29,953 nt of DNA from positions 6,221,654-6,251,606 of the forward strand of contig CP070771.1 in assembly GCA_020345785.1 (NCBI GenBank), in the 5' to 3' direction. The notes beneath the pieces are model-generated. The model did not search any database, was not told where the DNA came from, and saw only the letters and a program-made list of their open reading frames with translations. Origin of the DNA: Desulfobacterales bacterium (GTDB lineage Bacteria; Desulfobacterota; Desulfobacteria; Desulfobacterales; JAFDCJ01). Made by a program: the position numbers and the translations under genes. This document shows, one piece after another, positions 4,449 through 26,923 of the stretch (the first letter of the stretch is position 1; every line of letters begins with the position of its first letter).

Positions 4449-4469
4449 CGACATTCGAGATTCGATATT
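4449..4469. repeat. heptad repeat, word cgaNatt x3
   Basis: Three consecutive 7-bp units, cgacatt, cgagatt and cgatatt, lie 17 bp beyond the stop codon of the exonuclease III gene. The 14-bp sequence at 4446-4459 (CTTCGACATTCGAG) recurs exactly at 18538-18551, in the gap between the AraM-like and kinase genes, so this is a dispersed element. Confidence 0.7.
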
Positions 4470-4485
4470 CTCTTTTTTAGTTATT

Positions 4486-5286
4486 TCAGATCTCAAGCAC
4501 CAGCCCAATCGGACAATGATCCGATCCATATATGTCATTGTTGATGGTTGTCTCTTTAATCCAGCCTTTGTCGATCATGTCCCGGGTTACAAAAAAATAA
4601 TCAATACGCCACCCGATGTTGCGGTCTCGCGCCTTGAAGCGGTAGGTCCACCACGAGTATTTTATCGTGTCCGGGTTAAAATAACGAAAGGTATCGACGT
4701 ATTCGTTTTGTATTATACGGTCGAGCCAGTCCCGCTCAATTCTTAAAAAGCCGGAAGTATTTTCATTGGCTTTCGGGTTTTTCAGATCGATTTCATTGTG
4801 GGCGGTATTGTAATCTCCTGTGATGAGAAGACTTCGTCCCTGCTTTTTATACTCATCTGCGTAATTGAAAAATGCTTCGTAAAAATCAAGTTTGTACTGC
4901 AGCCGTTCTTCACTCATCTGTCCGTTGGGAAAATATACGTTAAAAAAAACGAAATCATCGAAATCCATTTCCAGAATGCGGCCCTCATCATCGTATTTGG
5001 GTTCACCGATGCCGTGTTTGACACGTGTGGGTTTGATTCGCGCATAAACGGCAACACCGCTGTATCCCTTTTTCACAGTGGCATGGGACCAATGGGATTC
5101 ATATCCTTGGATGTCGGCGATTTCCGGGGTAAGCTGGGACTGCTGGAGTTTGGTTTCCTGCAAAGCAATAATGTCGGCGTCCAATTGCTTGAAGGAGCCG
5201 AAAAAATCCTTTTTTACAGCGGCTCGCAGTCCGTTTACATTCCAGGAGATCAGCGATATTCTTTTCTTCTTCTTTTTCGTGGTCAT
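4486..5286 (-). CDS. xth: exodeoxyribonuclease III
   Basis: Exonuclease III-type AP endonuclease of the endonuclease/exonuclease/phosphatase fold, which cleaves DNA 5' to abasic sites in base excision repair. All active-site motifs are visible in 266 aa: SWNVNG (Asn16), LQETK (Glu44, metal ligand), NVYFPNG (Tyr118), GDYNTAH (Asp158, Asn160), WRIDYFF (Asp229) and the terminal GSDHCPIGL (Asp256, His257). The length is typical. The N-terminus carries a run of lysines (TTKKKKKR) ahead of the domain. It appears to be a single-gene unit: upstream is a 168-bp gap with an inverted repeat, downstream a heptad repeat. Function is well supported by the motifs. Confidence 0.95.
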   Translation of the reverse strand: MTTKKKKKRISLISWNVNGLRAAVKKDFFGSFKQLDADIIALQETKLQQSQLTPEIADIQGYESHWSHATVKKGYSGVAVYARIKPTRVKHGIGEPKYDDEGRILEMDFDDFVFFNVYFPNGQMSEERLQYKLDFYEAFFNYADEYKKQGRSLLITGDYNTAHNEIDLKNPKANENTSGFLRIERDWLDRIIQNEYVDTFRYFNPDTIKYSWWTYRFKARDRNIGWRIDYFFVTRDMIDKGWIKETTINNDIYGSDHCPIGLVLEI

Positions 5287-5343
5287 TCTCTCGACTCTAA
5301 CGGAGTTAAAAAAATAAATCGATCATTTTGACAATAATGGGTG

Positions 5344-5430
5344 AAGACACGAAAAAGAAGTAAAAAATTTTTCTTGTTTTTTGAAGTTTATGAAAAGGTT
5401 AAAATATACTTCTTTGCGCCTTCGTGTCTT
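5344..5430. repeat. two-part inverted repeat in the xth upstream gap
   Basis: AAGACACGAA (5344-5353) matches TTCGTGTCTT (5421-5430) perfectly in inverted orientation. Inside it AAGAAGTA (5355-5362) pairs with TACTTCTT (5407-5414). The right arm carries a 5-nt longer joint (tgcgcc). The right arm reads roughly in 7-bp words (ctttgcg, ccttcgt, gtcttat) and lies about 25 bp after the stop of the small unknown gene. It resembles the other gap elements but is less regular. Confidence 0.6.
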
Positions 5431-5454
5431 ATTGGCTAAGTGTCCGCAGCTGAT

Positions 5455-6003
5455 TTACTTACCCAACAATCGGTTGACTCTGCCATTCAGACTGCTGTTG
5501 GGTGTGGCCTTCAAAACGCCGCTAATCGAAACGAAACACTGCCTGACGATTGCCGTTTTGGGCCGTGATGATTCCAGCTGTGCATCAATGGTTTTCAAAT
5601 CAGCCATCAATTCGGTCAGGGTATCAAAGTCCAGCCCCAGAGAGCCGACTTGGTCTTTTATTTCTGTAACAATTTGCTCAACCGCCTGCCGGCCGGCCAA
5701 ATTTAACAGCGGTTCATCACCAAGTTTGGTTGACTCGCCGGCATCCGAAGCAGGTGGCCCGACTAAGTTTTGCACCATCTCTGATCCAGCCGCGCTGATT
5801 CCAATCCCACCGGAAAGCGTTCTAATTTCCACCAGCTGTGAGCCGATCAGCCCCTCGGCCACCCTGGATGCGGCATCCCGCTCCAGGCCTATCAGTCCGC
5901 CGATATCATACATGGATACCTGTACCGAAGAATCACCGCGGGTTTGTTCAAACAATTGAATTAAAAACTGCTTGCCGGTTTCATCAATGTCACAATCTGT
6001 CAT
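5455..6003 (-). CDS. small protein of unknown function, possible winged-helix
   Basis: About 182 residues, no family recognised. The N-terminal 70 residues (KQFLIQLFEQT...VSMYDIGGLIGLERDAASRVAEGLIGSQLVEIRTL) have the helix-turn-helix-then-hairpin rhythm of a winged-helix domain, with GLIGLERDAASRV as a possible recognition region and a following GGIGISAAG wing-like turn. The rest is a helical segment with a conserved-looking QLESSRPKTAIVRQC. I choose the ATG at 6003, 4 bp after the stop of the epimerase gene, because GGGGGAAGGA at the end of that gene can serve as ribosome site; the ATG at 6045 would create an overlap. It is therefore probably translationally coupled to the epimerase gene upstream. 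The DNA-binding idea is only a structural guess. Confidence 0.6.
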   Translation of the reverse strand: MTDCDIDETGKQFLIQLFEQTRGDSSVQVSMYDIGGLIGLERDAASRVAEGLIGSQLVEIRTLSGGIGISAAGSEMVQNLVGPPASDAGESTKLGDEPLLNLAGRQAVEQIVTEIKDQVGSLGLDFDTLTELMADLKTIDAQLESSRPKTAIVRQCFVSISGVLKATPNSSLNGRVNRLLGK

Positions 6004-6007
6004 ATCA

Positions 6008-6919
6008 TCAATTTGATCCTTCCCCCACAACCGCTCGAATTGCATCTTTGATTTGTGCGTAGCGAAACGAAAATCCGTGGCTTAACAGTTTATCAGGAAC
6101 TGTCCGCTGACTGGCTAAAAACACGTTACCGAATTCACCCATAACGAGGCGAATCATAAAAGCCGGTGCCGGCATAACAGATGGACGCTTCAAAACCTCG
6201 CCCAGCGTTCGGGCCAGATCACGATATTGAATCTGGTTGGGAGCGCAGAAATTCACGGCACCTTCGATTTGATCACTTTCCAGGATAAATAGGATGGCCG
6301 CCATCAGGTCATCCAGATGCATCCAGGGAAACCATTGCTTCCCGCTTCCCATAGAGCCGCCAACAAATAGTTTAAAGGCCGGAATCATTTTGGCCATGGC
6401 ACCGCCGTCTTTACCAATGATCACGCCGAAGCGCATAACAACTGCTCGAATTCCCTTATCGGCTGCCTGCATCGCCTCCTTTTCCCAATCCACCGATACT
6501 CCTGCCAGAAAGTCATTACCAGGTTTTTCATCCTCCTTGAGGATATCATCTCCCCGGTCTCCGTAAAATCCGGCGCCGGAAGCACTGCAGAGGGTAATGT
6601 TTGCTCCCGTGGGAAGCGCGGCGACAATATTGCGGGTGGTCAGTATGCGACTGTCGTATATTTGCTTTTTATAGCCGGCGGTCCAACGTTTGAATATCGT
6701 TGTTCCTGCCAGATTTACCACTGCATCGACATCTTCCAATTCTGTCTGCCATTTGCCCGGTTGAGTGGTGTCTGCTGAAATATAGCGGTAACTTTCATGA
6801 CGGATTCGATTCTGCCCGGCAGATCGGCCGGTAGCAATTATCCGGTGTCCTCGGTCCAGCAAATAGTCCGCAAGATTCGAGCCGACAAAGCCGGAACCGC
6901 CAGTGATGAGTATTTTCAT
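6008..6919 (-). CDS. TIGR01777-type NAD(P)-dependent epimerase (YfcH-like)
   Basis: Extended short-chain dehydrogenase of the TIGR01777 family (E. coli YfcH and relatives). It opens with GGSGFVGSNLADYLL, whose GGSGFVG (7-13) binds NAD(P). A VVNLAGTTI segment follows, then SASGAGFYG in the position of the catalytic Ser and Tyr, and MRFGVIIGKDGGAM. The C-terminal part has the family's DUF1731-like ending (LLSHGFSFRY). At 303 aa it is full length. The true substrate of this family is not known. A sigma-70-like promoter at 6970-6998 and a GGGGGGG ribosome site next to the ATG support this start; the small unknown gene follows in the same transcript. Confidence 0.85.
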   Translation of the reverse strand: MKILITGGSGFVGSNLADYLLDRGHRIIATGRSAGQNRIRHESYRYISADTTQPGKWQTELEDVDAVVNLAGTTIFKRWTAGYKKQIYDSRILTTRNIVAALPTGANITLCSASGAGFYGDRGDDILKEDEKPGNDFLAGVSVDWEKEAMQAADKGIRAVVMRFGVIIGKDGGAMAKMIPAFKLFVGGSMGSGKQWFPWMHLDDLMAAILFILESDQIEGAVNFCAPNQIQYRDLARTLGEVLKRPSVMPAPAFMIRLVMGEFGNVFLASQRTVPDKLLSHGFSFRYAQIKDAIRAVVGEGSN

Positions 6920-6969
6920 ACCCCCCCCTTACCCCACGAATCACGCGGGACACGTTCGTTTACCGCTTC

Positions 6970-6998
6970 ATCGTATGTAGTGAAAAGGGATTTGTCAA
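6970..6998 (-). promoter_or_regulatory. sigma-70-type promoter for the epimerase operon
   Basis: On the minus strand TTGACA (6998-6993) is followed after exactly 17 bp by TACGAT (6975-6970). This matches the -35 consensus fully and the -10 in four of six positions. The predicted start point near 6963 gives a leader of about 45 nt before the epimerase ATG at 6919. Confidence 0.65.
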
Positions 6999-7096
6999 CA
7001 CTTGAGGAGCAATTAAAATATTGCGATATGAAGTATTTAGAATTTTATAAAAATGAACGATGACGAAAATTGAAGCGCGGCGGGCGGGCCGTAATT

Positions 7097-7120
7097 GCCG
7101 GAGGCACGGAGTCACCGAGG
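7097..7120. repeat. short octamer repeat overlapping the fur 3' end
   Basis: Three 8-bp units, gccggagg, cacggagt and caccgagg, run across the stop codon of the Fur-family gene at 7112. It is similar in style to the 7-bp arrays but has period 8, and it encodes part of that protein's terminal THPR tail. Confidence 0.5.
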
Positions 7121-7546
7121 GTGGGTTCTGTTTAAACAATCGGAGCAAATGCCGATAAATTCGAGTTTGTGGCCGATGATTTTATAGTCGGTGAATCCTT
7201 TTAGTTCATGTTTAATCGCCACATCAAACTCAAGCGGCGCATCATCCACCCGATCACAGTGAATGCAGCGGATGTGGTAATGATAACCAGCCACACCATC
7301 AAACCGTTTCTGCGTGCAACCCAGTTCAAGCCTCTGAATTTCACCGCTTTCGGAGAGAATTTCAAGATTACGATAGACGGTTCCAAGGCTGATGCGTGGC
7401 AGACGCTTACGAACCATTTCGTAGATCTCATCAGCACTGGGATGGGTATGTACTTTTTGAAGTTCTTCCAGGATGACTTTACGCTGGCGCGTCATCCGAA
7501 GATTTGATTGCTTCAGCAAACCTGCAAACTCCCGGCATGTTGTCAA
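7112..7546 (-). CDS. Fur family regulator, PerR-like
   Basis: A 144-aa metalloregulator. The N-terminal winged helix has NLRMTRQRKVILEEL and the DNA-reading ISLGTVYRNLEIL. The structural zinc site is complete: C94-x2-C97 (CIHC) and C134-x2-C137 (CSDC). Asp83 in RFDG with His89 and His91 in GYHYH fit the regulatory metal site of PerR-type peroxide sensors better than Fur proper, so peroxide- or iron-dependent repression is the best inference. The start is a TTG with CCAGGA a few bases upstream; no in-frame ATG lies before Met18, which is already inside the DNA-binding domain. It stands alone, transcribed toward the epimerase genes. Its target genes are not evident here. Confidence 0.85.
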   Translation of the reverse strand: MTTCREFAGLLKQSNLRMTRQRKVILEELQKVHTHPSADEIYEMVRKRLPRISLGTVYRNLEILSESGEIQRLELGCTQKRFDGVAGYHYHIRCIHCDRVDDAPLEFDVAIKHELKGFTDYKIIGHKLEFIGICSDCLNRTHPR

Positions 7547-7628
7547 TAATCCTGGCGCTAAGAACCAGAATTTGGTTATCCTTTATCGTCTCGCAAGACG
7601 TAATATGAAAATCCCGACTCTTCCAACA

Positions 7629-7733
7629 CGCACCCCGCACCTCGCACCCCGCACCTCGCACCCCGCAACCCGCACCCCGTATCCCGCACCCCGTATCCCG
7701 CACCCCGTATCCCGCACCCCGTATCCCGCAACC
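7629..7733. repeat. 15-unit heptanucleotide tandem array
   Basis: Fifteen uninterrupted 7-bp units. The first seven are cgcaccc, cgcacct, cgcaccc, cgcacct, cgcaccc, cgcaacc and cgcaccc. Then cgtatcc alternates with cgcaccc, giving a 14-bp higher-order unit in four copies, and cgcaacc closes the array. There are no spacers, so it is not a CRISPR. The array ends 3 bp before the stop codon of the citrate synthase gene, i.e. it lies in that gene's 3' untranslated region, C-rich on the plus strand and G-rich in the transcript. Confidence 0.95.
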
Positions 7734-7736
7734 GCT

Positions 7737-8921
7737 TCACCTTTCTTCCAAGGGTGTATATTCGCAAACTTCAGGGCCGCAATAATCTCCAACGTACTCG
7801 GATTCCGGTCGATAGAGCATCGGTTTGGGAGCGGCACCTGCAAATTGCTCCTCGATGACGTGGGCACACCAGCCGGCTATCCTGGCAACGGCAAACACCG
7901 GTGTAAAAAGGTCCACGGGAAATCCCATCAAGTGATACAATGGACCGCTGTAAAAATCCACATTGACATATATATCCTTTTCCTTGCGTTTTCTAAATTC
8001 GTCTTTGCCAGTTTTTTCAAGCAGCGTGGATATTTCGTACCACCTGCTATCCCCGGTTCTTTCTGCCATGACCTTAATCATGTCCTGCAGAATGGGTGCG
8101 CGGGGATCATCGGTATCGTAGACGGCATGTCCCAAACCAAAAATCACCCGGCCGGCATCAAATTCCTGATTGACATAATCACGTACCTTGTCAGGTGAGC
8201 CGATTTTGAAAAGCATTTCCATGACCCGTGCATTGGCACCGCCATGCAGATCACCGGACAGTGAGCCCACCGCGGCTGCAACCGACGCAAACATATGGGC
8301 CCTGGTGGAAGCAACCTCCCGGGCGGCAAAGGTTGAGGCATTAAAGGAGTGCTCGGCGTGACAGACAAGTGCCACATCCAGAAAGCGGGCCACTTCTTCA
8401 TCGGGGATCTCGCCATTGAGCATGTAAAGAAAATTTGCCGCATGATCCAGATTGGGTGACGGTTGGACCGGTTCTTTCTGGTTGCGAATCCGGTGCCAGG
8501 CGGCGATGATCGCCGAAAATTTGGCAATCAGTTTGGTGGCCATACGCACTGACGCATCCATGGTCTGATCTCTGTTAATTACATCTTCATCATGCTGGGC
8601 CAGCATGGGAACCACAGACTGCAAAACGTCCATGGGCATGGCATTCTTGGGCATGGTCTTCATCGCAGCAAGCACCGCGTCGGGCAGGCCTTGCTGGGCA
8701 AGGATGCGGCGCTTGAACTCTTCAAGTTCGGCCGTGTCGGGTAATTTTTCGTAAAGCAGCAAATAAGCGGTTTCTTCAAATGATGCCCGTTTTGCCAGAT
8801 CCTGAATCAAATACCCCCTGTAAATCAACCGGCCGTTGGCACCATCCACATCACATATGCGTGATTGCGCGATGACAACACCCCGCAAGCCGGTATTCAA
8901 GATCGGTTTACATTCTTCCAT
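7737..8921 (-). CDS. gltA: citrate synthase
   Basis: Si-type citrate synthase: condenses acetyl-CoA and oxaloacetate to citrate in the cytoplasm, here feeding the TCA cycle or glutamate synthesis. The catalytic triad is visible: His226 (LSGDLHGGAN), His265 (GLGHAVYDTDDPRA) and Asp322 (NVDFYSGPLY), with substrate-binding HAEHSFNAST around 188-197. At 394 aa it matches the short bacterial CitZ-like type. I start at the ATG at 8921, preceded by GAGAGGTGAG; an in-frame TTG 15 bp upstream lies within that ribosome site and is unlikely. 2-methylcitrate synthase is a close relative and cannot be fully excluded, but no other methylcitrate-cycle gene is nearby. The 3' end abuts a 15-unit heptamer array. 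Confidence 0.92.
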   Translation of the reverse strand: MEECKPILNTGLRGVVIAQSRICDVDGANGRLIYRGYLIQDLAKRASFEETAYLLLYEKLPDTAELEEFKRRILAQQGLPDAVLAAMKTMPKNAMPMDVLQSVVPMLAQHDEDVINRDQTMDASVRMATKLIAKFSAIIAAWHRIRNQKEPVQPSPNLDHAANFLYMLNGEIPDEEVARFLDVALVCHAEHSFNASTFAAREVASTRAHMFASVAAAVGSLSGDLHGGANARVMEMLFKIGSPDKVRDYVNQEFDAGRVIFGLGHAVYDTDDPRAPILQDMIKVMAERTGDSRWYEISTLLEKTGKDEFRKRKEKDIYVNVDFYSGPLYHLMGFPVDLFTPVFAVARIAGWCAHVIEEQFAGAAPKPMLYRPESEYVGDYCGPEVCEYTPLEER

Positions 8922-8975
8922 ACTCTCACCTCTCAAGGAATTTTGGATCGATTTAGATTTTTAAATTAAAAGGAT

Positions 8976-9000
8976 AAAAGCTCGAAATTTGACAGCTTTT
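8976..9000 (-). terminator. weak hairpin after the glutaredoxin-FTR pair
   Basis: AAAAGCT (8976-8982) and AGCTTTT (8994-9000) are perfect inverted 7-mers with an 11-nt loop. On the minus strand the hairpin follows the FTR-like gene by 34 bp and is itself followed by T-rich sequence, as expected of a weak intrinsic terminator. Confidence 0.4.
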
Positions 9001-9034
9001 AAGATGGGGGTTGCGGAAAAAAAAGTCAAGCAAA

Positions 9035-9370
9035 TTAAAACGTCATTTTCTCCGGTGGCCTGCGTTCGGGAACATACTCGTGTGGGATTTTACTGTCGTT
9101 CCATTCCTGCGAAACATAAAGGTTGCAGTAGCAGCTGCCGTATTCCTCAATATCGGGTACGCTGTAAGTACAGGGGCATATGATGTCCCGGTCGGCTTCT
9201 CGATCGCCGGAAACCAGGCGGCACGGGCAGCCCATATATCCATAACGCGCTTTGTTAACCAGCAGCGCCTCCAACAGCTCCAGGGTCCGTTGCTCGTCCT
9301 TGTTAAAATAATACCCCTTGGGTTCCTGAACCTTTTTCATTCTTTCATAAAGCTCTTTTGCATCCATCAC
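9035..9370 (-). CDS. ferredoxin-thioredoxin reductase catalytic-domain protein
   Basis: A 111-aa protein with the full cysteine signature of the FTR catalytic (beta) subunit: CPC (48-50), CPC (65-67) and CYC (80-82). In plant FTR these six cysteines hold a 4Fe-4S cluster next to a redox disulfide and pass ferredoxin electrons to thioredoxin. GYYFNKDEQ and the YGYMGCPCRL segment are also typical. No variable (alpha) subunit is visible, as in many anaerobic bacteria and archaea where the catalytic chain works alone. The gene overlaps the end of the glutaredoxin-like gene by 4 bp, so the pair is co-translated and the glutaredoxin is the likely partner. The start is GTG at 9370 or ATG at 9367, with GGAGG slightly far upstream. 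Confidence 0.9.
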   Translation of the reverse strand: MMDAKELYERMKKVQEPKGYYFNKDEQRTLELLEALLVNKARYGYMGCPCRLVSGDREADRDIICPCTYSVPDIEEYGSCYCNLYVSQEWNDSKIPHEYVPERRPPEKMTF

Positions 9371-9621
9371 ATTCCCAATGCCTCCTTAATTTCTTTCTCC
9401 TTGAACCCGACGATAACCTTATCTCCGATAATGATGGTGGGAAAGGAGCAACGTGGATTAAATTTTTTGACATCCTCAATAATTGCTTTTCTTTCATCGC
9501 CCTGGAGCAGATCCACGTCGACGAATTCGTACTTGATCGTGCAATCGCTCAGATATTTTTTTGTTGCTTTACAATGGCTGCAGGTACTCAGAGAAAATAC
9601 TTTTACTTCAGGATTAGACAT
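9367..9621 (-). CDS. glutaredoxin family protein
   Basis: An 84-aa thioredoxin-fold protein with a CSHC active site (Cys14, Cys17), the cis-proline loop SFPT and a VGFKEKEI C-terminal helix start, all glutaredoxin/NrdH features. It should carry dithiol electrons for protein or substrate reduction in the cytoplasm. The ATG at 9621 is chosen because AAAGGAAG is correctly spaced from it; an in-frame ATG two codons upstream overlaps that site. Coupling with the FTR-like gene suggests a ferredoxin-FTR-glutaredoxin electron path replacing NADPH-thioredoxin reductase (inference). It is preceded by a long leader hairpin at 9643-9720. Confidence 0.88.
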   Translation of the reverse strand: MSNPEVKVFSLSTCSHCKATKKYLSDCTIKYEFVDVDLLQGDERKAIIEDVKKFNPRCSFPTIIIGDKVIVGFKEKEIKEALGM

Positions 9622-9642
9622 GGACATCTTCCTTTCAAAATT

Positions 9643-9720
9643 CAGCGACCACCAGCAGAGCTGGAGGTATCAAGAAGGCCCCTGGATGGGGCCGGGACCA
9701 CGCTCTGCCGCTGGTCGCTG
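9643..9720 (-). promoter_or_regulatory. structured leader RNA candidate of the grx-FTR operon
   Basis: The ends of this stretch pair over 19 bp with two mismatches (arms 9643-9661 and 9702-9720). Inside is a second perfect stem, GGCCCC (9677-9682) with GGGGCC (9688-9693), around a 5-nt loop. On the minus strand a TATATATA stretch at about 9723-9731 precedes it, so a transcript would begin almost at the outer stem, and the glutaredoxin ribosome site follows about 15 nt after it. This would be a leader of about 100 nt. It matches no riboswitch class I recognise; it could equally be a mobile palindromic unit. Confidence 0.55.
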
Positions 9721-10462
9721 ATGTATATATAAAATTTTGGCGGCATCATAAGTGTTTCCGGCTGGCGCTTGCCCTTGTAGGTTCTTGTGGCATATTTTCA
9801 TCATGCCTGCGTCTGATCTGTCTGGTTTAGCGAGCATCAGTATTAATGACCGGTAACCATTTGATTTTAGATAATCATTTAAGATAGCAAAAAATCGGGT
9901 ACATGAACACAGAAAATTTCAAATAAATTATTCGAAACCTACAGGCGTATGCAATCAAATTTTGTACCAAAAATATGACTAATTATCCAATATATTAATT
10001 TAATACGATTTTAGCAGGTTAATCAGGCACTGTAAATCAATGGTCTCATTATTCAATACAATGAGACGGATGAGACACTTGGCCTGTCAGCTGAGGAATA
10101 AAAAATAAAAAATTTCGAAATTGGCCATGACCGGTCTTCAAAATCATTATTTCAACAACGAAATCCTCTATGTCTTAAAAAAAAGTCAATATAACACTCT
10201 ATTATCGTTATTATTTTTGTTGACAATTAAATATTGGGGCCGTACGTATGGCAAATGGCTTCCCAAATCAAAAACGATCCATCGTCTCAGGTAAATTTTC
10301 GATACAACCATGTATCATAAGACAATATTCGGTATCTCGCGAAACAAAAAGGATATGTTTTTAGCCGGAAATTCTTTGCATCGGTTGTGAAATTTTATTA
10401 TTTATTAGGTAGTTACGCAATCTACGATGGATATACCGATTAATTAATTTTTCGCGTAAAAC
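9721..10462. other. long AT-rich gene-free region upstream of cooS
   Basis: About 740 bp without a credible coding frame on either strand, clearly more AT-rich than the flanking genes. It holds a perfect inverted repeat at 10043-10067 with an extra half-site, a second GTCTCA at 10284-10289, and GATAC-N6-GTATC at 10301-10316. A TTGACA at 10220-10225 has no good -10. The size and palindromes suggest a control region for cooS. Confidence 0.5.
10043..10076. promoter_or_regulatory. GTCTCATT palindrome with extra half-site, candidate activator site
   Basis: GTCTCATT (10043-10050) and AATGAGAC (10060-10067) are exact inverted copies separated by 9 bp. A third half-site ATGAGAC follows directly at 10070-10076. 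This is a plausible dimer-binding site, about 400 bp upstream of the sigma-54 promoter, within the range used by enhancer-binding proteins acting by DNA looping. Which protein binds is unknown. Confidence 0.45.
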
Positions 10463-10477
10463 TGGCATGTAATTTGC
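10463..10477 (+). promoter_or_regulatory. sigma-54 promoter of cooS
   Basis: TGGCATGTAATTTGC matches the sigma-54 consensus TGGCACGNNNNTTGC at every defined position but one (T for C at the sixth base), with correct GG-to-GC spacing. The start point would be near 10489, leaving a leader of about 195 nt before the cooS ATG. Sigma-54 promoters need an AAA+ activator, and one is encoded at 13787-15145. Confidence 0.75.
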
Positions 10478-10683
10478 CATAGTTAGTAGGATACGAGAAA
10501 ACTTAACAATTTGCCGGAGAGTTGGCGTCTTGAGGAACGGCCCACTTATTTAAGGTTGACCGATAATCGTTTCCAGCAATCTGTCCTAATTTTGCCACCG
10601 AACTGAATTTCCATCATCTCGTTTTAGATGAAGATCCAGCCAGGTCAATTGATTTTCAATAAATCCAGAAAGGAAGGCTATGT

Positions 10684-12666
10684 ATGGAAGAAAAAAAAGT
10701 CATCTCCAAAACGTCCAAAACAAAGGAGATTGAAATCAGGGATTTAACATCCTGCGATGCGACAGCTCAAATGCTGGCGAAAGCCAGACGGGATGGCGTT
10801 GAAACCGCCTTTGATCGGGCAATTAATATGAAGGCTTGTCCCATCGGGGCAGATTCAGCCTGCTGCAAACACTGCATGATGGGGCCCTGCCGGCTGAATG
10901 CCAAGGATCCTTATTCCAAGGTAGGTGTATGCGGTGCCACTATCGACACGATCATGGCTCGCAATTTTGCAAGAATGGTTGCAGCCGGCACTGCTGCCCA
11001 TACCGACCACGGTATGGGAATGCTCGATCTTTTTCGCGACGTATTGAATGGCAAGATAAAAGACTATACGATCAAAAACCCGCTGAAGCTTATTGAAGTC
11101 GCCAAATCCATCGATATCGAGACCGAAGATCGTGAAATTCAAGACATCGCCATGGATCTCTATCATGAGCTCGAACGAACCTACATTCAGGTTGACGGAG
11201 AAATTCCCTTCGCCAAACGGGTACCGCCAAAAACCCTGGAAACCTGGCGCAAAGAAGGTATTGTTCCGCGCGGGGCCATGCGCGAAATTATGGAATTGAT
11301 GCACCGCTCTGCCATGGGCGTGGACCAGCACTATGAAAATATCACCAAAGGATGCAGCCGCACAGCGCTGGCTGACGGTTGGGGCGGCTCCATGGTCGCC
11401 ACCGAGATTTCCGATATCCTGTTCGGCACCCCATCGCCGGTGGCCGTAGAAGTGAACATGGGCGTATTAAAGGAAGACCAGGTCAACATCATCATTCACG
11501 GCCATGAACCGAATCTGTTTGAGTCCATCGTCGAATCGGTGAATGAACCGACCCTGTTGCAGGCCGCCAAAGACGCCGGCGCCAAAGGCATCAACCTGGT
11601 GGGTATGTGCTGCTCGGGCCTGGAAATGTTTGTCCGCCACGGCGTTCCTCACGCGGGCAACTTTATGTCCACCGAGGCCGTTTTGGTCACCGGTGCGGTA
11701 GACGCCATGGGCGTAGATGTCCAGTGTATCAAGCAGGGTCTTGTAAAAGTAGCCGACTGTTACGGAACACCGCTTATTACGACCAATCGGCGCGCCCACA
11801 TTGAAGGCGCCTTACATATTGAGTTTCATGAACACGATCCCAAGGCCTGCACCGATGAGATCGTCATTCAAGCCATCGGACGTTTCAAAAACCGCAAAAT
11901 GCCGATCGAAATTCCAAAAATCGTTAACACCGGCGTACACGGATTTTCCCACGAGTACATCAATTACATGCTCGGCGGAACGTTTCGGGCTTCCTACACG
12001 CCCCTAAATGACAATATTATCAATGGCCGCATTCGCGGAGTGGCCGGTGTGGTCGGATGCACGAATCCCAGGATGAAACAGGATTGGGTGCATGTGGAAC
12101 TGGTTAAAGAGCTGATTAAAAACGACGTGCTGGTGGTGCAAACCGGCTGCTCCCAAATCGCTTTGGCCAAAGCCGGACTGACAACCCCGGAAGCGGCCCA
12201 TCTGGCCGGTCCCGGCCTAAAAGAAGTATGCGAAACCGTGGGAATGCCGCCGGTTCTGGGCTGTGGTGCCTGCGTTGACAACAGCCGCATCCTGATTGCC
12301 TGCGCTGAAATGGTCAAGACCGGCGGTCTCGGAGAGAGCATCGCGGATCTGCCGGTGGCCGGATGTGCACCGGAATACATGAGTGAGAAAGCAATTGCAA
12401 TCGGCCAGTACTTTGTGGCATCGGGTGTCTACACCGTATTCGGGGTTACCTTCCCAATCGTAGAGGGAACCAAATTCCAAAAACACCTGTTTGAAGAGCT
12501 GGAGAAAAAGGGTATGGGGAAATGGGGTTTCGCAACCGATCCGTATGAAATTGCATCGAAGATGATCGCGCATATTGACAAAAAACGTAAGCAGCTCGGT
12601 ATCGACAAGGCCAGAGAGCGGACGCTGGTTGATATGGCGGATCGTCGGGCGATGGATGCGGCGTAA
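10684..12666 (+). CDS. cooS: anaerobic carbon monoxide dehydrogenase catalytic subunit
   Basis: Ni-Fe-S CO dehydrogenase (660 aa) that interconverts CO and CO2 with ferredoxin-type electron carriers in the cytoplasm. The N-terminal cluster cysteines are complete: Cys52 and Cys60 for the shared D-cluster; Cys61, Cys64, Cys69 and Cys83 for the B-cluster. C-cluster ligands are all present: His in HGHEP (272-276), Cys in MCCSG (309-310), Cys348 (DVQCI), Cys459 (GCTNPR), Cys489 (TGCSQ) and Cys530 (GACVDNSR). Catalytic Lys569 (YMSEKA) and the AAHTDHG histidine region (105-110) are also there. AAAGGAAG precedes the ATG. It is monocistronic: sigma-54 promoter upstream, terminator 40 bp downstream, no cooF, cooC, hydrogenase or acetyl-CoA synthase genes adjacent. 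The role (CO oxidation, redox balance, or supply of CO/CO2 to a distant Wood-Ljungdahl cluster) cannot be decided from this context. Confidence 0.96.
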   Translation: MEEKKVISKTSKTKEIEIRDLTSCDATAQMLAKARRDGVETAFDRAINMKACPIGADSACCKHCMMGPCRLNAKDPYSKVGVCGATIDTIMARNFARMVAAGTAAHTDHGMGMLDLFRDVLNGKIKDYTIKNPLKLIEVAKSIDIETEDREIQDIAMDLYHELERTYIQVDGEIPFAKRVPPKTLETWRKEGIVPRGAMREIMELMHRSAMGVDQHYENITKGCSRTALADGWGGSMVATEISDILFGTPSPVAVEVNMGVLKEDQVNIIIHGHEPNLFESIVESVNEPTLLQAAKDAGAKGINLVGMCCSGLEMFVRHGVPHAGNFMSTEAVLVTGAVDAMGVDVQCIKQGLVKVADCYGTPLITTNRRAHIEGALHIEFHEHDPKACTDEIVIQAIGRFKNRKMPIEIPKIVNTGVHGFSHEYINYMLGGTFRASYTPLNDNIINGRIRGVAGVVGCTNPRMKQDWVHVELVKELIKNDVLVVQTGCSQIALAKAGLTTPEAAHLAGPGLKEVCETVGMPPVLGCGACVDNSRILIACAEMVKTGGLGESIADLPVAGCAPEYMSEKAIAIGQYFVASGVYTVFGVTFPIVEGTKFQKHLFEELEKKGMGKWGFATDPYEIASKMIAHIDKKRKQLGIDKARERTLVDMADRRAMDAA

Positions 12667-12705
12667 TCAATCCGACAGGCCGCGACAGTCAAAAACATCA
12701 AATCA

Positions 12706-12740
12706 AAAGGGGCTTTCCAACGGAAGCCCCTTTGTTTTTT
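12706..12740 (+). terminator. intrinsic terminator of cooS
   Basis: AAAGGGGCTT (12706-12715) pairs with AAGCCCCTTT (12724-12733), and the stem is followed by a T-run to 12740. It lies 40 bp after the cooS stop and closes it as a single-gene unit. Confidence 0.9.
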
Positions 12741-12883
12741 GAGTTTGGAGTGCGACCAGGCTGTCCTGCTCCTGTTACGAAGCGATGCGGCAACCGATTG
12801 GAACTCAAGAATCAGCAGGACTGGAAACCCAAACGGTTCTACCCTCTTATGAATCTTCAAATGGTCGGGCCAGTTAACGGATT

Positions 12884-13101
12884 GAACATCGAAGGTCGAA
12901 CGTCCAATATGGATGGCGCTACGCTCTATCTGTTTTAAAAAAAGTGAACCGATGCCTGCAAAACGCTGCACCGAGTTGGATTTCGACGGGTCGATTCGAT
13001 CGCCAGAGCAGGCATTCCCGCAGCGCCAGCGCTTGCGCGGTGTTTTATTCAGCATTTTTTTTTGATAGACAGGATTCAATATTCGATGTTGGACGTTCGA
13101 C
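12884..13101. repeat. inverted pair of heptad repeats (gaacNtc words)
   Basis: The left arm has 7-bp units gaacatc, gaaggtc, gaacgtc (12884-12904) and then caatatg. The right arm (about 13074-13108) has attcgat, gttggac, gttcgac, gttcatt. GTCGAACGTCCAA (12895-12907) is the exact inverse of 13089-13101. Between the arms another inverted pair, ATGCCTGC and GCAGGCAT, makes the element nested. It fills most of the gap between the cooS terminator and the 117-aa gene; no coding frame here is credible. Confidence 0.75.
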
Positions 13102-13156
13102 GTTCATTCGTTTCTTTTACAGATTAAACTGACCGCTCCGCGGCCAGCGCTCGGGC

Positions 13157-13191
13157 TGAAACCTGAACCTCTGAACCCTGAACCTCCAACC
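13157..13191. repeat. heptad repeat, word ctgaacc x5
   Basis: Units tgaaacc, tgaacct, ctgaacc, ctgaacc and tccaacc run in strict 7-bp register and end 9 bp from the stop codon of the 117-aa gene, i.e. in its 3' untranslated region. The boundary text aaccccctaa recurs in the same position at the 3' end of mobB. Confidence 0.75.
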
Positions 13192-13200
13192 CCCTAAAAT

Positions 13201-13554
13201 TCAGCTTGCCAATCCCAATTCACTTTTCAGCCAGGCTTTTAAATCGTCCTCGAGCGCATATACCCCTTTCAGTTCGCAGACATCCTTTTCATACTGCTGC
13301 GGCAATTCAAATCGTGCCAGTTCAACCGCTTCTTCCGAATTGCGCCGAATCAGATAAATAAAATAGGGTTTGCGCCAGCAGTTTACCACAAAATAGGTAG
13401 AATAATCGCTTTTCGAACGTATGGTATACTTCCCAGATCCCCAATCCGTATTGCCCCATTCAAGATAAAGTTTGACAGCTTCTTCAGGTCCCAGATCCCA
13501 GTTGATCTCGTTGATCAGATCAGTTTTCTTTTTTAATTCTTCCAACGACAGCAT
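13201..13554 (-). CDS. small conserved protein, possibly DVU0772 family
   Basis: A 117-aa soluble acidic protein. The pattern EINWDLGPEEAVKLYLEWGN, then GKYTIRSKSD, YFVVNCW and YLIRRNSEEAVELARFELP, is what I recall for the DVU0772-type small proteins of sulfate-reducing bacteria; this is recognition from memory and not a search. No cofactor motif, signal peptide or membrane segment is seen, and the function is unknown. A perfect AAAGGAGG lies before the ATG, so translation is likely strong. It lies 232 bp downstream of the sigma-54 regulator on the same strand and may be independent of it. Its 3' end abuts a heptad repeat. Confidence 0.75.
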   Translation of the reverse strand: MLSLEELKKKTDLINEINWDLGPEEAVKLYLEWGNTDWGSGKYTIRSKSDYSTYFVVNCWRKPYFIYLIRRNSEEAVELARFELPQQYEKDVCELKGVYALEDDLKAWLKSELGLAS

Positions 13555-13786
13555 TTAGACCTCCTTTAATGACAACTTGGCCTTGGAAAAGTAATGACTT
13601 AACTAACTGCTGTCAAACAGCCCGCCAGGCGATTCCGGCTTATTATGTGGGCCTGCAGATTTAAGCAATCTCACTTCATACGCCAGCGGCATCGTTTAGG
13701 TTTGAACGACTCAAAAATACTCCCGCAGTGACGGAAAAACCTTTTCAATTCTCATCCCGGTAGATCGGGTTGGCTTGTGAATGGAG

Positions 13787-15998: not shown

Positions 15999-16062
15999 CG
16001 AAGAAGCTAAAATAGGAGTTTTTCTTTTATCAAATCCAAAATCCGCATTCCGGAGTATACGA

Positions 16063-16213: not shown

Positions 16214-16230
16214 CGCGCAGCGCAAAGCCC

Positions 16231-16251
16231 CCAACCCTGAACCCCCTAATT
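16231..16251. repeat. short heptad remnant at the mobB 3' end
   Basis: Units ccaaccc, tgaaccc and cctaatt lie immediately before the mobB stop codon on the plus-strand map. The word and boundary sequence are nearly the same as in the ctgaacc array next to the 117-aa gene at 13157-13191. Confidence 0.45.
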
Positions 16252-16737
16252 CTATTTTAAATATTTTTTTTCAATGAAGTCTGCTAAAGAGTCAATGTCT
16301 TCAAGATCGAACACAGGCACATCCAGTTCAAGACCGGCATCACTGACAACGGCAACCAGATAGGGGTCCTTTAGCAGAAGCGCTTGGCGGTGTCTGGCTG
16401 CTCGCACCACCTCAATTTTGGGTTTGCGCGCTTTTTTATAGCCTTCGGTAATCACCAGATCCAGATCGTCAAAATAGTCTTGCAGGCTTTCCAGGGTTCC
16501 TTGGTGATCATTTTTAACCATGGCAATTTTTCCCGGAGAAGCAATAATTACCGTTTCAGCTCCGGCATCTTTATGGCGCCAGCTGTCTTTGCCGGTTTTG
16601 TCAAAATCAAAAATATGGTGAGAGTGTTTAATGGTGCCGATTCGATAACCTTTGCTTATGAGCACAGGAATCAGTTTCTCAATAAGCGTGGTTTTACCGG
16701 ACTGTGATCGACCTACGATGCAAATAATCTGAGGCAT
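16252..16737 (-). CDS. mobB: molybdopterin-guanine dinucleotide biosynthesis protein B
   Basis: MobB-type P-loop GTPase that assists MobA in attaching GMP to molybdopterin, supplying cofactor for formate dehydrogenase and DMSO-reductase-type enzymes. GRSQSGKTT (9-17) is the P-loop. GTIKHSHHIFDFDKTGKDSWRH is the family's second motif, then AGAETVIIASP and DLVITEGYKKARKPKIEVVR. About 161 aa, normal for MobB. I prefer the ATG at 16737 because GGAG stands 6 bp upstream; an in-frame ATG at 16749 has no ribosome site. No other molybdenum gene is adjacent. It is divergent from the AraM-like gene with a spacing of about 195 bp. Confidence 0.93.
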   Translation of the reverse strand: MPQIICIVGRSQSGKTTLIEKLIPVLISKGYRIGTIKHSHHIFDFDKTGKDSWRHKDAGAETVIIASPGKIAMVKNDHQGTLESLQDYFDDLDLVITEGYKKARKPKIEVVRAARHRQALLLKDPYLVAVVSDAGLELDVPVFDLEDIDSLADFIEKKYLK

Positions 16738-16932
16738 ACCGAGCTCCATACCAGAATCTTTTATCCATTCAGAACCAAAATTGAATGCTACACACCATCA
16801 GGTAAACGGCGTGAAAGTGAAAATTATGCTGCAAATGACGCATTGTCAAGAATAACCGGAAAAGCACCTGGAACCTGAAGGGTGATCAGTATTGACAATA
16901 AAGCCCGCTTTCGTTATCGGATGATTGTGGAT

Positions 16933-18378
16933 ATGAACAAGGCTAAAATAAAAAACGCAATCAAGTCGGCCGCCGATACAGCGGAATGTCTCATCGGACC
17001 TGATTGCATTTATCAACTACCCGACATTTTTAAGAAATATTTTCCCGGCGCTAAAGCGGTCGTGGTTGCCGATGACAATACGTTTAAAGCAGCTGGTAGA
17101 CGTGTCAATGACAAGCTAAAATCTATTGGATTTGAGGTTATCAATCCCTTTGTTTTCCCCGCCAAACCTATGCTTCATGCCGACTACCGGCACGTTGAAG
17201 CGCTAAGGGATTTTTTAATCACATACGATACCATCGCCATTGCGGTTGGATCCGGAACCATCAACGATATTGTCAAGCTGGCCTCACATGAAAGCAGCCG
17301 AAAGTACATGGTGGTACCGACGGCAGCCTCGGTTGACGGCTACTCCGCCTATGGTGCCTCCATTTCGATAAATGGCCTTAAACAAACCCTTGAATGTGCA
17401 GCCCCATTGGTTATTGTGGCCGACACCCAAGTTCTGCAAAAAGCACCCACGGAAATGACCGCTGCCGGATATGCCGACCTGCTAGGCAAAATCACGGCGG
17501 GTGCTGATTGGATTATCGCCGACAGCATCAACGTGGAGGCTATCGGGCCGGCGAGCTGGAATATGGTCCAAACAGATTTGCGCCAATGGACCAGTCAACC
17601 GAAAAACCTCTCAGAAGGTGACCTCCGGGCCATAGAGCACCTTTTTGAGGGTCTGATAATGACCGGCCTGGCCATGCAGACTCAGAAGAGTTCTCGTCCG
17701 GCTTCGGGAACCGAACATCTTTTCAGCCACACCTGGGAAATGCAGAACCTTGAAAAAGACGGTGTTCCGGTTTCCCATGGGTTTAAAGTAGGCATCGGCA
17801 CCCTAGCCGCCTGCGCCATGATGGAAACCATCTTCGCTAAAGATATCAATCAGCTGAACATCGACACGGCCTGCGACAAATACCCCAGTCCGACAGAGCG
17901 GGAAAAGCAGGTACGCAATGCTTTAGGCGCGACGCCGGCTGGCATCGGTCCCGGCGGGAGGTGGGCCAAGCGCCGATCCGCCAAGGAAAACCTCCTTGGC
18001 AGCCAAAGCATCGGCCGGCGCATCGTCGAGCAGGCCGGGGAAGGCATTGTCAGCGGCATCGTTACAGCGAGTCGCTCGAAACACTTGTCAAAGAATGACC
18101 TGCGAGACCGGCTTGGTCTCATTAAATCTCGCTGGAATGATATGCGGTCAAAGGTGAGCACTCACTTGCTGCCATACTCCGAATTGTTGGCCAGGTTGGC
18201 CGCTGCCGGGTGTCCTACGGCCCCTGATCAGATCAATCTTTCCCGCGAGCAGGTCAAAGAGACATTCCTCCTGGCCCAGATGATTCGCGAACGATATACG
18301 GTGCTGGATTTAGCCTATGAAATGAGCTGGCTGGAAGATGGTGTGCAAGAGATCTATTTGTCAGACACTTATTTGTAA
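16933..18378 (+). CDS. AraM / sn-glycerol-1-phosphate dehydrogenase-like enzyme
   Basis: Metal-dependent NAD(P) dehydrogenase of the glycerol-1-phosphate dehydrogenase / AraM branch of the iron-alcohol dehydrogenase-like fold. The NAD-binding part contains AIAVGSGTINDIVKLAS and VPTAASVDGYSAYGASI. Metal ligands are the Asp in AAGYADLLGK and the histidines of GTEHLFSH and VSHGFKVGIGT. The C-terminus RERYTVLDLAYEM is characteristic. Known members interconvert DHAP and glycerol-1-phosphate. About 481 aa, longer than the roughly 400-aa bacterial AraM, with extra sequence in the C-terminal half. The start is uncertain: GTG at 16882 or ATGs at 16921 and 16933, none with a good ribosome site; I use 16933, which leaves about 20 residues before the conserved IGPDC region. 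It is convergent with the FGGY kinase operon and may oxidise that kinase's product or a related polyol phosphate (inference). Confidence 0.85.
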   Translation: MNKAKIKNAIKSAADTAECLIGPDCIYQLPDIFKKYFPGAKAVVVADDNTFKAAGRRVNDKLKSIGFEVINPFVFPAKPMLHADYRHVEALRDFLITYDTIAIAVGSGTINDIVKLASHESSRKYMVVPTAASVDGYSAYGASISINGLKQTLECAAPLVIVADTQVLQKAPTEMTAAGYADLLGKITAGADWIIADSINVEAIGPASWNMVQTDLRQWTSQPKNLSEGDLRAIEHLFEGLIMTGLAMQTQKSSRPASGTEHLFSHTWEMQNLEKDGVPVSHGFKVGIGTLAACAMMETIFAKDINQLNIDTACDKYPSPTEREKQVRNALGATPAGIGPGGRWAKRRSAKENLLGSQSIGRRIVEQAGEGIVSGIVTASRSKHLSKNDLRDRLGLIKSRWNDMRSKVSTHLLPYSELLARLAAAGCPTAPDQINLSREQVKETFLLAQMIRERYTVLDLAYEMSWLEDGVQEIYLSDTYL

Positions 18379-18382
18379 TTTC

Positions 18383-18665
18383 AGGTTTCGGGTGTCAGGT
18401 GTCAGCCCAGCCGCTGGTTTCGGAAGGCGGCCAGTCTGATCGAAGACGAAACTCTTTAAAGGCGAAAATCGAATACCGAATGTCGAAGGAAGGCATTCTA
18501 TCTATTTATTAAAAAGACTGAGCGAAGCGAAACCACCCTTCGACATTCGAGTCGCAGATCACGTCTTTCGCGTTATTCGATATTCAAAGGTTCGCTGTTC
18601 CGACGATGCGAATTTTCATATGAGTCTGCGGTTCTTGGGTTTCTGACACCTGACACCTGAAACCT
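18383..18665. repeat. nested inverted heptad element between convergent genes
   Basis: The outer arms are 23 bp (18383-18405 and 18643-18665), inverted with one mismatch, each made of 7-bp words (ctgacac, ctgacac, ctgaaac on the right). Inside lies a second inverted pair, CGAATGTCGAAGG (18477-18489) and its exact inverse (18537-18549), built from different words (gaaaatc, gaatacc, gaatgtc). The whole gap of about 300 bp is this element; no coding frame is credible. The right arm ends 11 bp from the kinase stop codon. Confidence 0.85.
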
Positions 18666-18676
18666 CGAAGCCTAAT

Positions 18677-22603: not shown

Positions 22604-22749
22604 TCCTAATATCCCAAATCCCAATACCCAAATTTCAAATAATCCCCAAATCCGAAAATCCAATGTCCGAAACCTTCCGATCTCTCTATGAATATTTCGT
22701 TAGATATCTGCTGGTTTTGAATTTTGAGTTTTGGTCATTGGTATTTGTT
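22604..22749. repeat. heptad arms inside the ABC importer operon
   Basis: The left arm has atcccaa, atcccaa, tacccaa, atttcaa (22611-22638), then looser units such as ccaaatc and ccgaaac. The right arm has ttttgaa, ttttgag, ttttggt, cattggt (22715-22742), an approximate inverse of the left words. This is the gap between the permease gene (stop 22871) and the ATPase gene (start 22533); nothing in it looks coding. It is the only such element here lying within an apparent operon. Confidence 0.75.
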
Positions 22750-22870
22750 TGAGATTTGTGTTTTGGTGCTCGAATTTTTAATGCGTTTCATTAAGCCCAT
22801 TAACTACTCAATTTTAGACAGATACTGGCTTAAGCCTAGTGGCCCTGATACTCCCCTGCTTTACCACGCA

Positions 22871-24781: not shown

Positions 24782-24788
24782 TTTACAG

Positions 24789-26207: not shown

Positions 26208-26223
26208 TTTTCCCCCCTTTCTG

Positions 26224-26298
26224 TTAAATTAGGTCTCCAAATGGTCTTGGTCCGAAGCGTAACGCAACCCTTGACCTGTCAGTTGACCTCTTTGCCAA
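26224..26298 (-). CDS. possible 24-codon leader peptide of the importer operon
   Basis: On the minus strand a 12-nt match to the complement of the usual bacterial 16S rRNA 3' end (AAAGGAGGTGAT, 26313-26302) is followed 7 bp after GGAGG by a TTG that opens a 24-codon frame (begins MAKRSTDRSRV, ends FGDLI) with a TAA at 26226-26224, only 16 bp before the binding-protein ATG. An overlapping frame from the ATG at 26303 is also open for 24 codons, but its spacing from the ribosome site is too short. Either is a candidate leader peptide. The alternative is a ribosome standby site without a product. Confidence 0.4.
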   Translation of the reverse strand: MAKRSTDRSRVALRFGPRPFGDLI

Positions 26299-26460
26299 CG
26301 CATCACCTCCTTTCATCCACCGCAATTCAATCAATTCGATAAACATCTTCCACCTGATCCGCCTACGGAACACATTCTTTTTCTTACAACATGCTCTCAA
26401 AAAATACCGATTAGGGCCTGATAGGGCTCAAAGCATTCAATTTGAAGTTGGCTGCGAAGA

Positions 26461-26569
26461 GTTATTCGTTGTTTGAGTAGACAGAGGGCGGCATTCCAAA
26501 TGCATTTAGAAGTGATGAGCTGGGGTACAGTAATCGATGACGTAAAACGAATAACCATTAACGAATAAC
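26461..26569. repeat. heptad inverted element, word aacgaat/aaccatt
   Basis: The right side reads aacgaat, aaccatt, aacgaat, aacaccc in strict 7-bp steps from 26546. AACGAATAAC occurs twice, 14 bp apart (26546-26555 and 26560-26569), and both copies are exact inverses of 26461-26470. A separate imperfect hairpin (CCCTATTGAAT with ATTCAATTAGGG) follows at about 26571-26597. The gap 26299-26687 has no credible gene; it should also contain the importer operon promoter, which I cannot pinpoint. Confidence 0.75.
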
Positions 26570-26687
26570 ACCCTATTGAATTCTGATTCAATTAGGGGTT
26601 GAGTTAATCTTCTGGCTCCGCCTCTGCATCAATAACCGGATAAGGTGCTTTGATATATCTGCTGGTGAAATCTGCTTACAGTCGACT

Positions 26688-26891
26688 ATGCTAGATCAAT
26701 TACGTTGGGGAATGTTCCTTTTTTTGGCTTCGAAAAGTTTTTTGACGGAATTCCTTATCACTTTAGTAGTTTTTTCTATGGGTTACGTCTTCGCCTATCA
26801 CAAGCTACTCAGAAATGTCAAGAGAAATGAATCAAAAGGATTTCAGCGTCTTAATAGATTTCGGGCGGGTAATCGACTCAAAACTCAATAA
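26688..26891 (+). CDS. doubtful small membrane protein
   Basis: A 67-codon frame with a hydrophobic stretch (LTEFLITLVVFSMGYVFAY) and a basic tail, the shape of a single-helix membrane protein. There is no ribosome site before the ATG, the frame runs into a heptad repeat at its end, and it is isolated on the plus strand between two minus-strand operons. It may be spurious. Confidence 0.25.
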   Translation: MLDQLRWGMFLFLASKSFLTEFLITLVVFSMGYVFAYHKLLRNVKRNESKGFQRLNRFRAGNRLKTQ

Positions 26892-26923
26892 ACCCGATCA
26901 ACTATAAACGATCAACTTTCAAC
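26875..26923. repeat. heptad repeat, word gatcaac, at a gene 3' end
   Basis: Seven 7-bp units: gactcaa, aactcaa, taaaccc, gatcaac, tataaac, gatcaac and tttcaac. They end 5 bp from the stop codon of the 450-aa exporter-associated gene. The AAGCGGTTG boundary in that gene's sense strand also flanks the stop codon of the citrate synthase gene next to its array. Confidence 0.8.

Follow-up and report, generated by a model that had tools for sequence, protein, structure and literature searches.

Cyanobacteria are known for heptameric short tandemly repeated repetitive (STRR) sequences, and REPINs with their RAYTs (inverted doublets of repetitive extragenic palindromic, REP, sequences and the REP-associated tyrosine transposases) are, like miniature inverted-repeat transposable elements (MITEs), small inverted-repeat elements whose non-coding copies outnumber the coding ones. 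The closest described systems are the intervening sequences (IVS) of 23S rRNA genes that hold an S23p open reading frame (ORF). These have been called selfish, with unclear function and origin, and in Coxiella the ORF is preceded by tandem heptamers, GACAGAT/GACAGAA, whose number varies among strains (PMC4990558). Degenerate intergenic heptamers of Xanthomonas (GGGAATC) and Nostoc (GGGGAYT) have been read as quadruplex elements, with 70 and 75 inverted GGGAATC pairs in two Xanthomonas strains (PMC4692102), and Avd of diversity-generating retroelements is a distant relative of S23 with a four-helix fold (PMC10053308). Here we analyse a stretch of 29,953 bp from a Desulfobacterales bacterium (contig CP070771.1, positions 6,221,654 to 6,251,606; "the window"), whose gene gaps hold degenerate 7-bp repeats with a different word from gap to gap. 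An initial annotation had taken this as a sign of a process that makes or selects 7-bp spacing. In all likelihood 7-bp spacing is not generated here from arbitrary sequence, and the arrays belong to selfish elements of one clan whose heptamer arms are word-specific; we regard it as very probable that they are the terminal inverted repeats of small elements encoding an S23 protein, and of the non-coding derivatives of such elements.

The elements are kin to the known S23 intervening sequences. In both, an S23 ORF lies inside inverted repeats, and the Coxiella heptamers are a CAGANGW type of word. The rRNA IVS, however, lie in rRNA helices and are cut out as RNA (PMC4990558), whereas the elements described here have many words, non-coding copies and a linkage between word and protein, and sit in gene gaps; where annotated (no rRNA search was made), their flanks are protein genes. 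The initial annotation knew of no counterpart in this group, but Geobacter metallireducens, of the same group, has paired heptamer/octamer sites of classes 1-3, and GGGACCG elements: tandem 7-/8-mers paired on opposite strands at variable distance, which differ in being read as regulator sites (PMC2700814). The Xanthomonas and Nostoc heptamers differ in having one word per group, and the accessible text on them contains no mention of S23, four helix or xcc0516 (PMC4692102). With STRRs the elements share tandem heptamers, found around S23 genes of cyanobacterial plasmids. They resemble REPINs and MITEs in their small inverted-repeat form and in having more non-coding than coding copies; unlike REPIN/RAYT systems, they lack an association with Y1 transposases, and their arms are tandem heptamers with a protein-specific word; no transposase was found. 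S23 scores 34.6 bits against the Avd family NF033474, below the cut-off of 80. What is already in print, then, is heptamers in one rRNA IVS, in Geobacter, in Xanthomonas and in cyanobacteria; a literature search, thin on subscription journals, returned no paper on an intergenic, many-worded S23 form, a heptamer-S23 link or a word-protein tie.

Period was measured as identity at a given lag in 28-bp stretches, with a threshold of at least 19 matches. In the window, lag 7 alone among lags 4-13 gives such stretches (122 start positions, with 92 at lag 14 and 15 at lag 15), which form 8 segments versus 0 after dinucleotide shuffling. Tandem Repeats Finder (TRF) gives period-7 arrays at 4447, 7629, 13082, 13156, 18381, 18643, 22611, 22715 and 26546, and also a low-complexity AATAAAA run at 10097. 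Relatives were ranked by citrate synthase identity: G001 (locus L001), an Olavius-associated deltaproteobacterium, is the best match at 83%, and G003 (locus L006) is a complete Desulfobacterales chromosome at 68%. Genes outside the window were called with a simple hexamer caller, so gap borders there are approximate. The lag-7 excess in intergenic DNA that the initial annotation had proposed to look for is present in both relatives: excess identity over shuffles at lags 7, 14 and 21 is 0.051, 0.030 and 0.023 in the window gaps, 0.051, 0.032 and 0.021 in those of G001 (48 kb), and 0.025, 0.013 and 0.013 in those of G003 (154 kb). At lag 7 the controls give 0.004 (gaps of G007 and G008, a small sample of 9.7 kb) and 0.006 (Nitrososphaerota loci); at lag 21 they are positive too (0.022 and 0.010), so that discrimination is by lags 7 and 14 only. 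Lag-7 segments number 94 in 394 kb of G001 and 58 in 400 kb of G003, where lags 5, 6, 8, 9 and 10 give 1-15 and lag-7 shuffles 0 and 1. Over 1.2 Mb of G003, 146 of the 161 lag-7 segments are intergenic, and lag 8 is a real minority (37 intergenic segments versus 146). Lag 7 is thereby confirmed as the dominant periodicity in the gaps of the window and of its two relatives.

Neighbouring arrays tend to face each other. An inverted score of at least 14 is reached by 46 of 135 neighbour pairs within 600 bp, versus 11 direct; the counts for random pairs are 120 and 130 of 3000. Overall, 90 of 294 arrays have an inverted partner with the same word. The words themselves are held in common, with 80 of 107 arrays from G001 and the window matching a G003 array at 18 or more (11, 16 and 17 of 107 in word-permuted controls). 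The shared period noted initially therefore stands, but the absence of shared sequence does not, since the words form a lexicon common to different genera; and the case made against copies of an inserted element is at best incomplete, because words recur as families and arrays pair as inverted termini. These observations also bear on the idea that the arrays are simple-sequence repeats, made and remade in the gaps by slippage with a 7-nt preference and without any element. In many genomes the long repeats reported to be most abundant are heptameric (PMC4679880), array length at the citrate synthase gap differs between the window and L001, and between lags 7 and 35 unit identity declines from 0.62 to 0.35, in part through an edge effect. 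Slippage nevertheless predicts neither the inverted same-word pairs nor the lexicon, nor the polar unit order of AGGTKTC arrays (the first unit is mostly [AT]GGTTTC, and AG follows the last), nor the S23 framing and word-protein linkage described next, and we consider it unlikely. A general YRRR rule for the words was tried and found weak (0.815 on the inward strand versus 0.784 word-permuted; maximum of 50 permutations, 0.797).

In about 1.6 Mb, six genes lie between same-word inverted arrays; the top-scoring one (27) encodes an S23/IVP (intervening-sequence protein) four-helix bundle, and the other five are not S23. The search was then started from S23 genes (PF05635/TIGR02436), using the best 30 and best 40 matches of the list, taken before their flanks were seen; PF05635 is present in 25 of 29 chosen genomes, and profiles recover the domain in 85 of 85 loci (NCBIfam TIGR02436 at E 2.5e-41 and 1.6e-22 for two). 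Framing, taken as an inverted match of at least 15 between the flanks, is seen for 40 of the 49 S23 domains that have both flanks, versus 16 of 889 called genes at equal margins; at 20 or more the counts are 29/49 versus 5/889 (Mann-Whitney p 5.5e-26). Adding 20 loci and setting the margin at 10 bp brings the framed Desulfobacterota S23 genes to 55 of 67, 44 of them at 20 or more; four further loci of this extended set lacked a flank and so stand outside the 67. Controls at that margin, drawn from two genomes only, give 19/889 and, at the stricter score, 6/889, and size-matched genes of 250-600 bp give 5/260 and 2/260. In 53 of the 67 genes the two flanks agree best at lag 7 or 14, and in nine at lag 8. 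Cyanobacteria supply most of the 33 plasmid records with an S23 relative; in a sample of 14 (13 cyanobacterial and one Gemmatimonadota; hosts include Nostoc, Calothrix, Anabaena, Pseudanabaena, Stanieria, Geminocystis and Picosynechococcus), 13 S23 genes are framed (at least 15) with profile borders and 11 with tblastn borders, at a best lag of 7 in 11, 8 in two and 14 in one. The S23 copies L294, L298, L318, L362, L342 and L344 have period 8 or nearly so. Conversely, 150 of the 294 arrays score at least 18 against some S23 arm, versus 39-40 when words are permuted.

A further alternative is that of REP/REPIN elements moved by Y1 (RAYT) transposases. Such elements are likewise small, inverted and dispersed, and PF01797 occurs in 10 of 10 genomes searched, yet it occurs also in the array-free G007 and G008, 30 PF01797 loci contain five arrays, and Y1 genes are framed in 2 of the 16 loci that were long enough, which leaves this explanation barely credible.

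The word goes with the protein. Among 66 copies, which were selected as framed, and with an arm score of at least 17 taken as a shared word, the word is shared in 28 of 32 pairs whose proteins are at least 0.6 identical, in 3 of 29 at 0.5-0.6, 16 of 178 at 0.4-0.5, 25 of 512 at 0.3-0.4 and 12 of 1394 below 0.3 (Mantel p 0.0005); the arm stretches compared include 20 bp on either side, so that some of the likeness may stem from adjacent parts of the element. Every one of the 20 pairs with an identity of at least 0.74 has pN (0.06-0.20) below pS (0.44-0.93), and dN/dS is 0.02-0.13 in the seven pairs with unsaturated dS: the S23 protein is under strong purifying selection. With silent sites mostly near saturation, the continued likeness of the word favours a tie between word and S23 protein over mere recent copying.

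A conserved core (GAGCGNAGCGA with an A/T stretch) gives 51 pattern matches in 4 genomes (50 distinct copies) and 0 in reversed controls. After two CGAATRT clusters were merged, 37 of 43 assignable core copies have word-matched arms, with seven others unassigned. We considered the core as an independent mobile unit with exchanged arms and rejected this, as comparison of the S23 elements L366 and L371 identifies its two halves as inner ends of S23 elements. Five copies (L219, L226, L231, L235 and L239) have arms with a 9-10 bp step (GCCTAAAAT), a third period class, and an outer GAACCGCAG repeat with a step of 8-9 borders many CGAATRT arms (L212, L221, L249, L366). GCGNAGC can form a DNA mini-hairpin; DNA folding does not support this for the GCGNAGC of the core. 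The core family matches the window at 18479-18548 (E 6e-21). Here 18464-18507 corresponds to the 5' side and 18516-18550 to the 3' side of L366, at 91% identity each, with 8 bp between the matched sides in the window and 432 bp, including the S23 domain, in L366; L371 matches the two sides at 83% and 85%. By sequence, 18464-18550 belongs to the S23 elements in arms and interior alike; the other window arrays were compared by arms only. The arrays of the window are as follows.

18464..18550, no strand assigned: non-coding S23 element copy, S23 gene missing; both sides match S23 element L366.
18458..18490, plus strand: left arm of this element, CGAATRT word, lag 7, inverted with 18537-18585; matches both arms of L366 (21 and 23).
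18535..18590, minus strand: right arm of this element, inverted repeats at 18537-18549 and 18571-18585; only 14 and 16 against the L366 arms.
18383..18405, plus strand: left arm of an outer pair, AGGTKTC word, directly past the stop at 18378; 96% complementary to 18643-18665; matches an arm of S23 copy L325 at 23.
18643..18665, minus strand: right arm of the AGGTKTC pair, immediately ahead of the stop (18677) of a minus-strand gene; L325 at 23.
12885..12913, plus strand: left arm of a TTCGATG/TTGGACG-type pair, 81-87% complementary to 13075-13105; weak S23 match, 14 and 18 (L371).
13075..13105, minus strand: right arm of this pair, inverted repeat, found by TRF; weak S23 match, 17 and 17 (L363).
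4442..4478, minus strand: right-arm array, CGAATRT word, by TRF and lag 7, accompanied by part of the conserved core at 4414-4455 (E 0.00044); L366 arms at 21 and 26; no left arm found.
7620..7733, minus strand: long GGGTGCG/GGGATACG array past the stop of the minus-strand citrate synthase gene (TRF score 141, period 14); arms of S23 copy L316 at 25 and 41; no inverted partner found.
13150..13196, minus strand: unpaired GGTTCAG-word array (CTGAACC on the plus strand), by TRF; arms of S23 copy L358 at 20 and 24.
22605..22643, plus strand: left arm, CAAATNN/CCCAAAT word, inverted score 15 with 22712-22765; S23 copy L098 (G1c) at 16.
22712..22765, minus strand: right arm of the CAAATNN/CCCAAAT pair; the L098 copy at 23.
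26540..26575, minus strand: GTTATTC-word array, by TRF and lag 7; S23 copy L324 at 20.
26895..26924, minus strand: GTTGATC-word array, lag 7; best S23 arms 11 and 11, no S23 copy bearing this word having been found.

The outer AGGTKTC pair lies between two convergent stop codons and encloses the CGAATRT pair (18464-18489/18537-18585), so the two are nested. Most of the runs listed in the initial annotation (4449, 7629, 12884, 13157, 18383 and 22604) hold period-7 arrays that fit its description. The run placed at 26461 is no more than a short GTTATTC fragment, and the array itself lies at 26540-26569; by eye, this short GTTATTCGTTG may be the partner of the 26540..26575 array. The array assigned to 26875 exists but lies at 26895-26924. 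The arrays at 13070-13107, 18458-18490 and 22714-22743 had not been listed, and the inverted pairing is likewise new.

On plasmids, sites with and without the element can be compared directly. At the same site, Calothrix L338 is longer by 507 bp than L352 and L353, Nostoc L333 by 444 and 441 bp than L346 and L347, Aulosira L340 by 403 bp than L349, and L344 of Picosynechococcus 7003 by 416 bp than L354 of strain 7002; no S23 domain was found at the shorter sites. One Nostoc strain has paralogous operons (L339/L343), each filled where the other is empty. These sites, too, run counter to the initial argument against inserted elements. At the L333 site, Nostoc ATCC 53789 (L348) carries a shorter insert that lacks an S23 domain; by eye, its arms are of the GGGAAC type. 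This insert, set against L333, and the window copy both have the ends of a coding element without its interior, as a MITE does. Clean sites were not obtained for the tandem pair L335/L345 or for L340 versus L350 and L351, and no useful relative was found for L332 and L341.

Three of the S23 elements lie between CRISPR genes: L331 and L335 between cas6 and cas4 (Pseudanabaena, Anabaena), and L344 between cas10 and cmr3 in Picosynechococcus 7003, whose relative 7002 is without it.

Turnover is also seen among close relatives. Synteny between L001 and the window extends from 90 to 16,857, and the citrate synthase gap of L001 has a GGGTTGC-type array at the same place. In gap 12666-13201 the window has the TTCGATG-type pair and L001 a period-8 pair, ATTCCATN (by eye); this gap partly shows what the initial annotation had named as refuting it, a different period at the same place in a relative. 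L004 has a CAGAAGT pair in gap 5286-5455 that both the window and L001 lack. Within the genus of G001, CAGANGW arrays occur in six of eight genomes and are absent from two, and among 247 sampled Desulfobacterota genomes a threefold CAGGTKTC match occurs in 31 and CAGANGW in 55, with a very uneven spread. S23 is present in 51 of the 55 CAGANGW-bearing genomes versus 88 of the 192 without that word, and in 28 of the 31 with CAGGTKTC versus 111 of 216; numbers of S23 and of words correlate over the 247 genomes (Spearman 0.52 for CAGANGW and 0.31 for CAGGTKTC, not corrected for kinship or completeness). Period-8 arrays as inverted neighbours (TGGAATRA, GGCTGGGA and ATTCCTGA types) occur in G003 at 222181/222298, 411538/411654, 581578/581702 and elsewhere.

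Ribbon-helix-helix proteins have operator steps of 7-8 bp. Conserved words with a period of 7 or 8 could also mean that chromosomal regulators or nucleoid proteins, for example of this class, bind at paired sites, as the Geobacter authors proposed, and the paired tandem heptamers/octamers of Geobacter metallireducens are predicted sites of a global regulator (PMC2700814). Such sites would not be expected to be present or absent at orthologous gaps, to be patchily distributed, to be linked to S23, or to be depleted where promoters lie: arrays per kb number 0.64 in divergent gaps versus 1.21 and 1.26 in other gaps, and often touch gene 3' ends. We consider regulator sites very unlikely. The contact with 3' ends (44 of 295 distances are negative) could instead point to RNA hairpins (terminators, or protectors of mRNA 3' ends) maintained because they pair, with the word incidental, and window 18376-18673 folds strongly (z -5.7). 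However, the paired arms are no more alike than same-word arms elsewhere (21/42, p 0.19), no covariation within pairs was found, pairs span up to 562 bp, S23 genes are framed, and in gap 12666-13201 a hairpin with a T run (12693-12746) is separate from the arms, which makes selection on hairpins highly improbable. In DNA folding, the long array at 7629 is worse than shuffles (z +3.5) and the 22611 pair weakly better (z -1.6). Rfam at gathering thresholds gave no match in the window.

Several points weigh against reading the arrays as ends of S23 elements. No S23 domain is found in the window, and two of its arrays (16215 and 26895) match no S23 arm; nor, at 18, do about half of the 294 arrays, 40 S23 copies having been compared. 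The framing score is missed by 12 of the 67 Desulfobacterota S23 genes, 6 of the 43 core copies have unlike arms, and 4 of the 32 close protein pairs differ in word (three of these exceptions involve L344, of period 8). S23 is also present in genomes without the tested words (88/192), and four CAGANGW-bearing and three CAGGTKTC-bearing draft genomes show no S23. The plasmid pairs have no clear target duplication, and in single comparisons insertion and deletion cannot be told apart. Finally, the accessible text on Nostoc PCC 7120 reports few paired repeats and, in general, no tie to known mobile elements (PMC4692102).

As terminal repeats of S23 elements, the arrays probably arose as follows. 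Coding members would carry one gene, for an S23/IVP four-helix-bundle protein that is kin to the proteins of 23S rRNA intervening sequences and distantly to Avd, and each family would combine an S23 lineage of its own with a particular heptamer (sometimes octamer) word, present at both ends, which in our reading is why the word differs between gaps. The window arrays would be MITE-like, non-coding relics or derivatives; nested shells would result where one copy landed within or next to another, and the many words from several families per genome. S23 may bind its own word, as DNA or RNA hairpin, and bring about movement, presumably acting in trans on non-coding copies, with cutting and copying left to a separate partner; the 7 bp might be the step of successive S23 subunits or dimers along the arm. 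Most arrays would be made by element birth and not by slippage, which may alter unit number afterwards. As to the route, our guess would be an RNA intermediate with a borrowed reverse transcriptase, given the distant Avd kinship and the hairpin form. More speculatively, and with more doubt than conviction, S23 could be a new kind of word-specific mobility protein that places a subunit or dimer on each heptamer, bridges the arms as a hairpin and moves without a nuclease of its own, as RNA or a single-stranded hairpin copied by borrowed reverse transcriptase or repair. Protein and word would change together, and the heptamers of Desulfobacterota, cyanobacteria and perhaps Xanthomonas and Geobacter would, with the rRNA intervening sequences, be one phenomenon; in that case, dozens of S23-heptamer pairs within the clan would amount to a natural recognition code.

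The link joins two open matters, the nature of bacterial gap heptamers and the origin of rRNA intervening sequences with S23 ORFs, into one testable question, that of an S23 protein recognising its own heptamer, for which many natural protein-word pairs could yield a code. It may explain puzzling heptamer repeats in other bacteria, and it cautions that what has been interpreted as regulator sites or quadruplex elements could be the termini of selfish DNA. A solved structure, PDB 2GSC (molecule name XCC0516, by which we take it to be from Xanthomonas campestris, a species in which inverted GGGAATC heptamers have been described), matches S23 at E 2.8e-27. At G224:C1:3065483-3086641 there are at least six clustered S23 matches, several equal-scoring and with an in-frame TAG, as if recently multiplied. 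The window gap 9628-10683 (about 1 kb), before the carbon monoxide dehydrogenase (CODH) gene at 10684, is without arrays except the AATAAAA run at 10097, and the gap before this gene is also about 0.95 kb long in L001 and L004.

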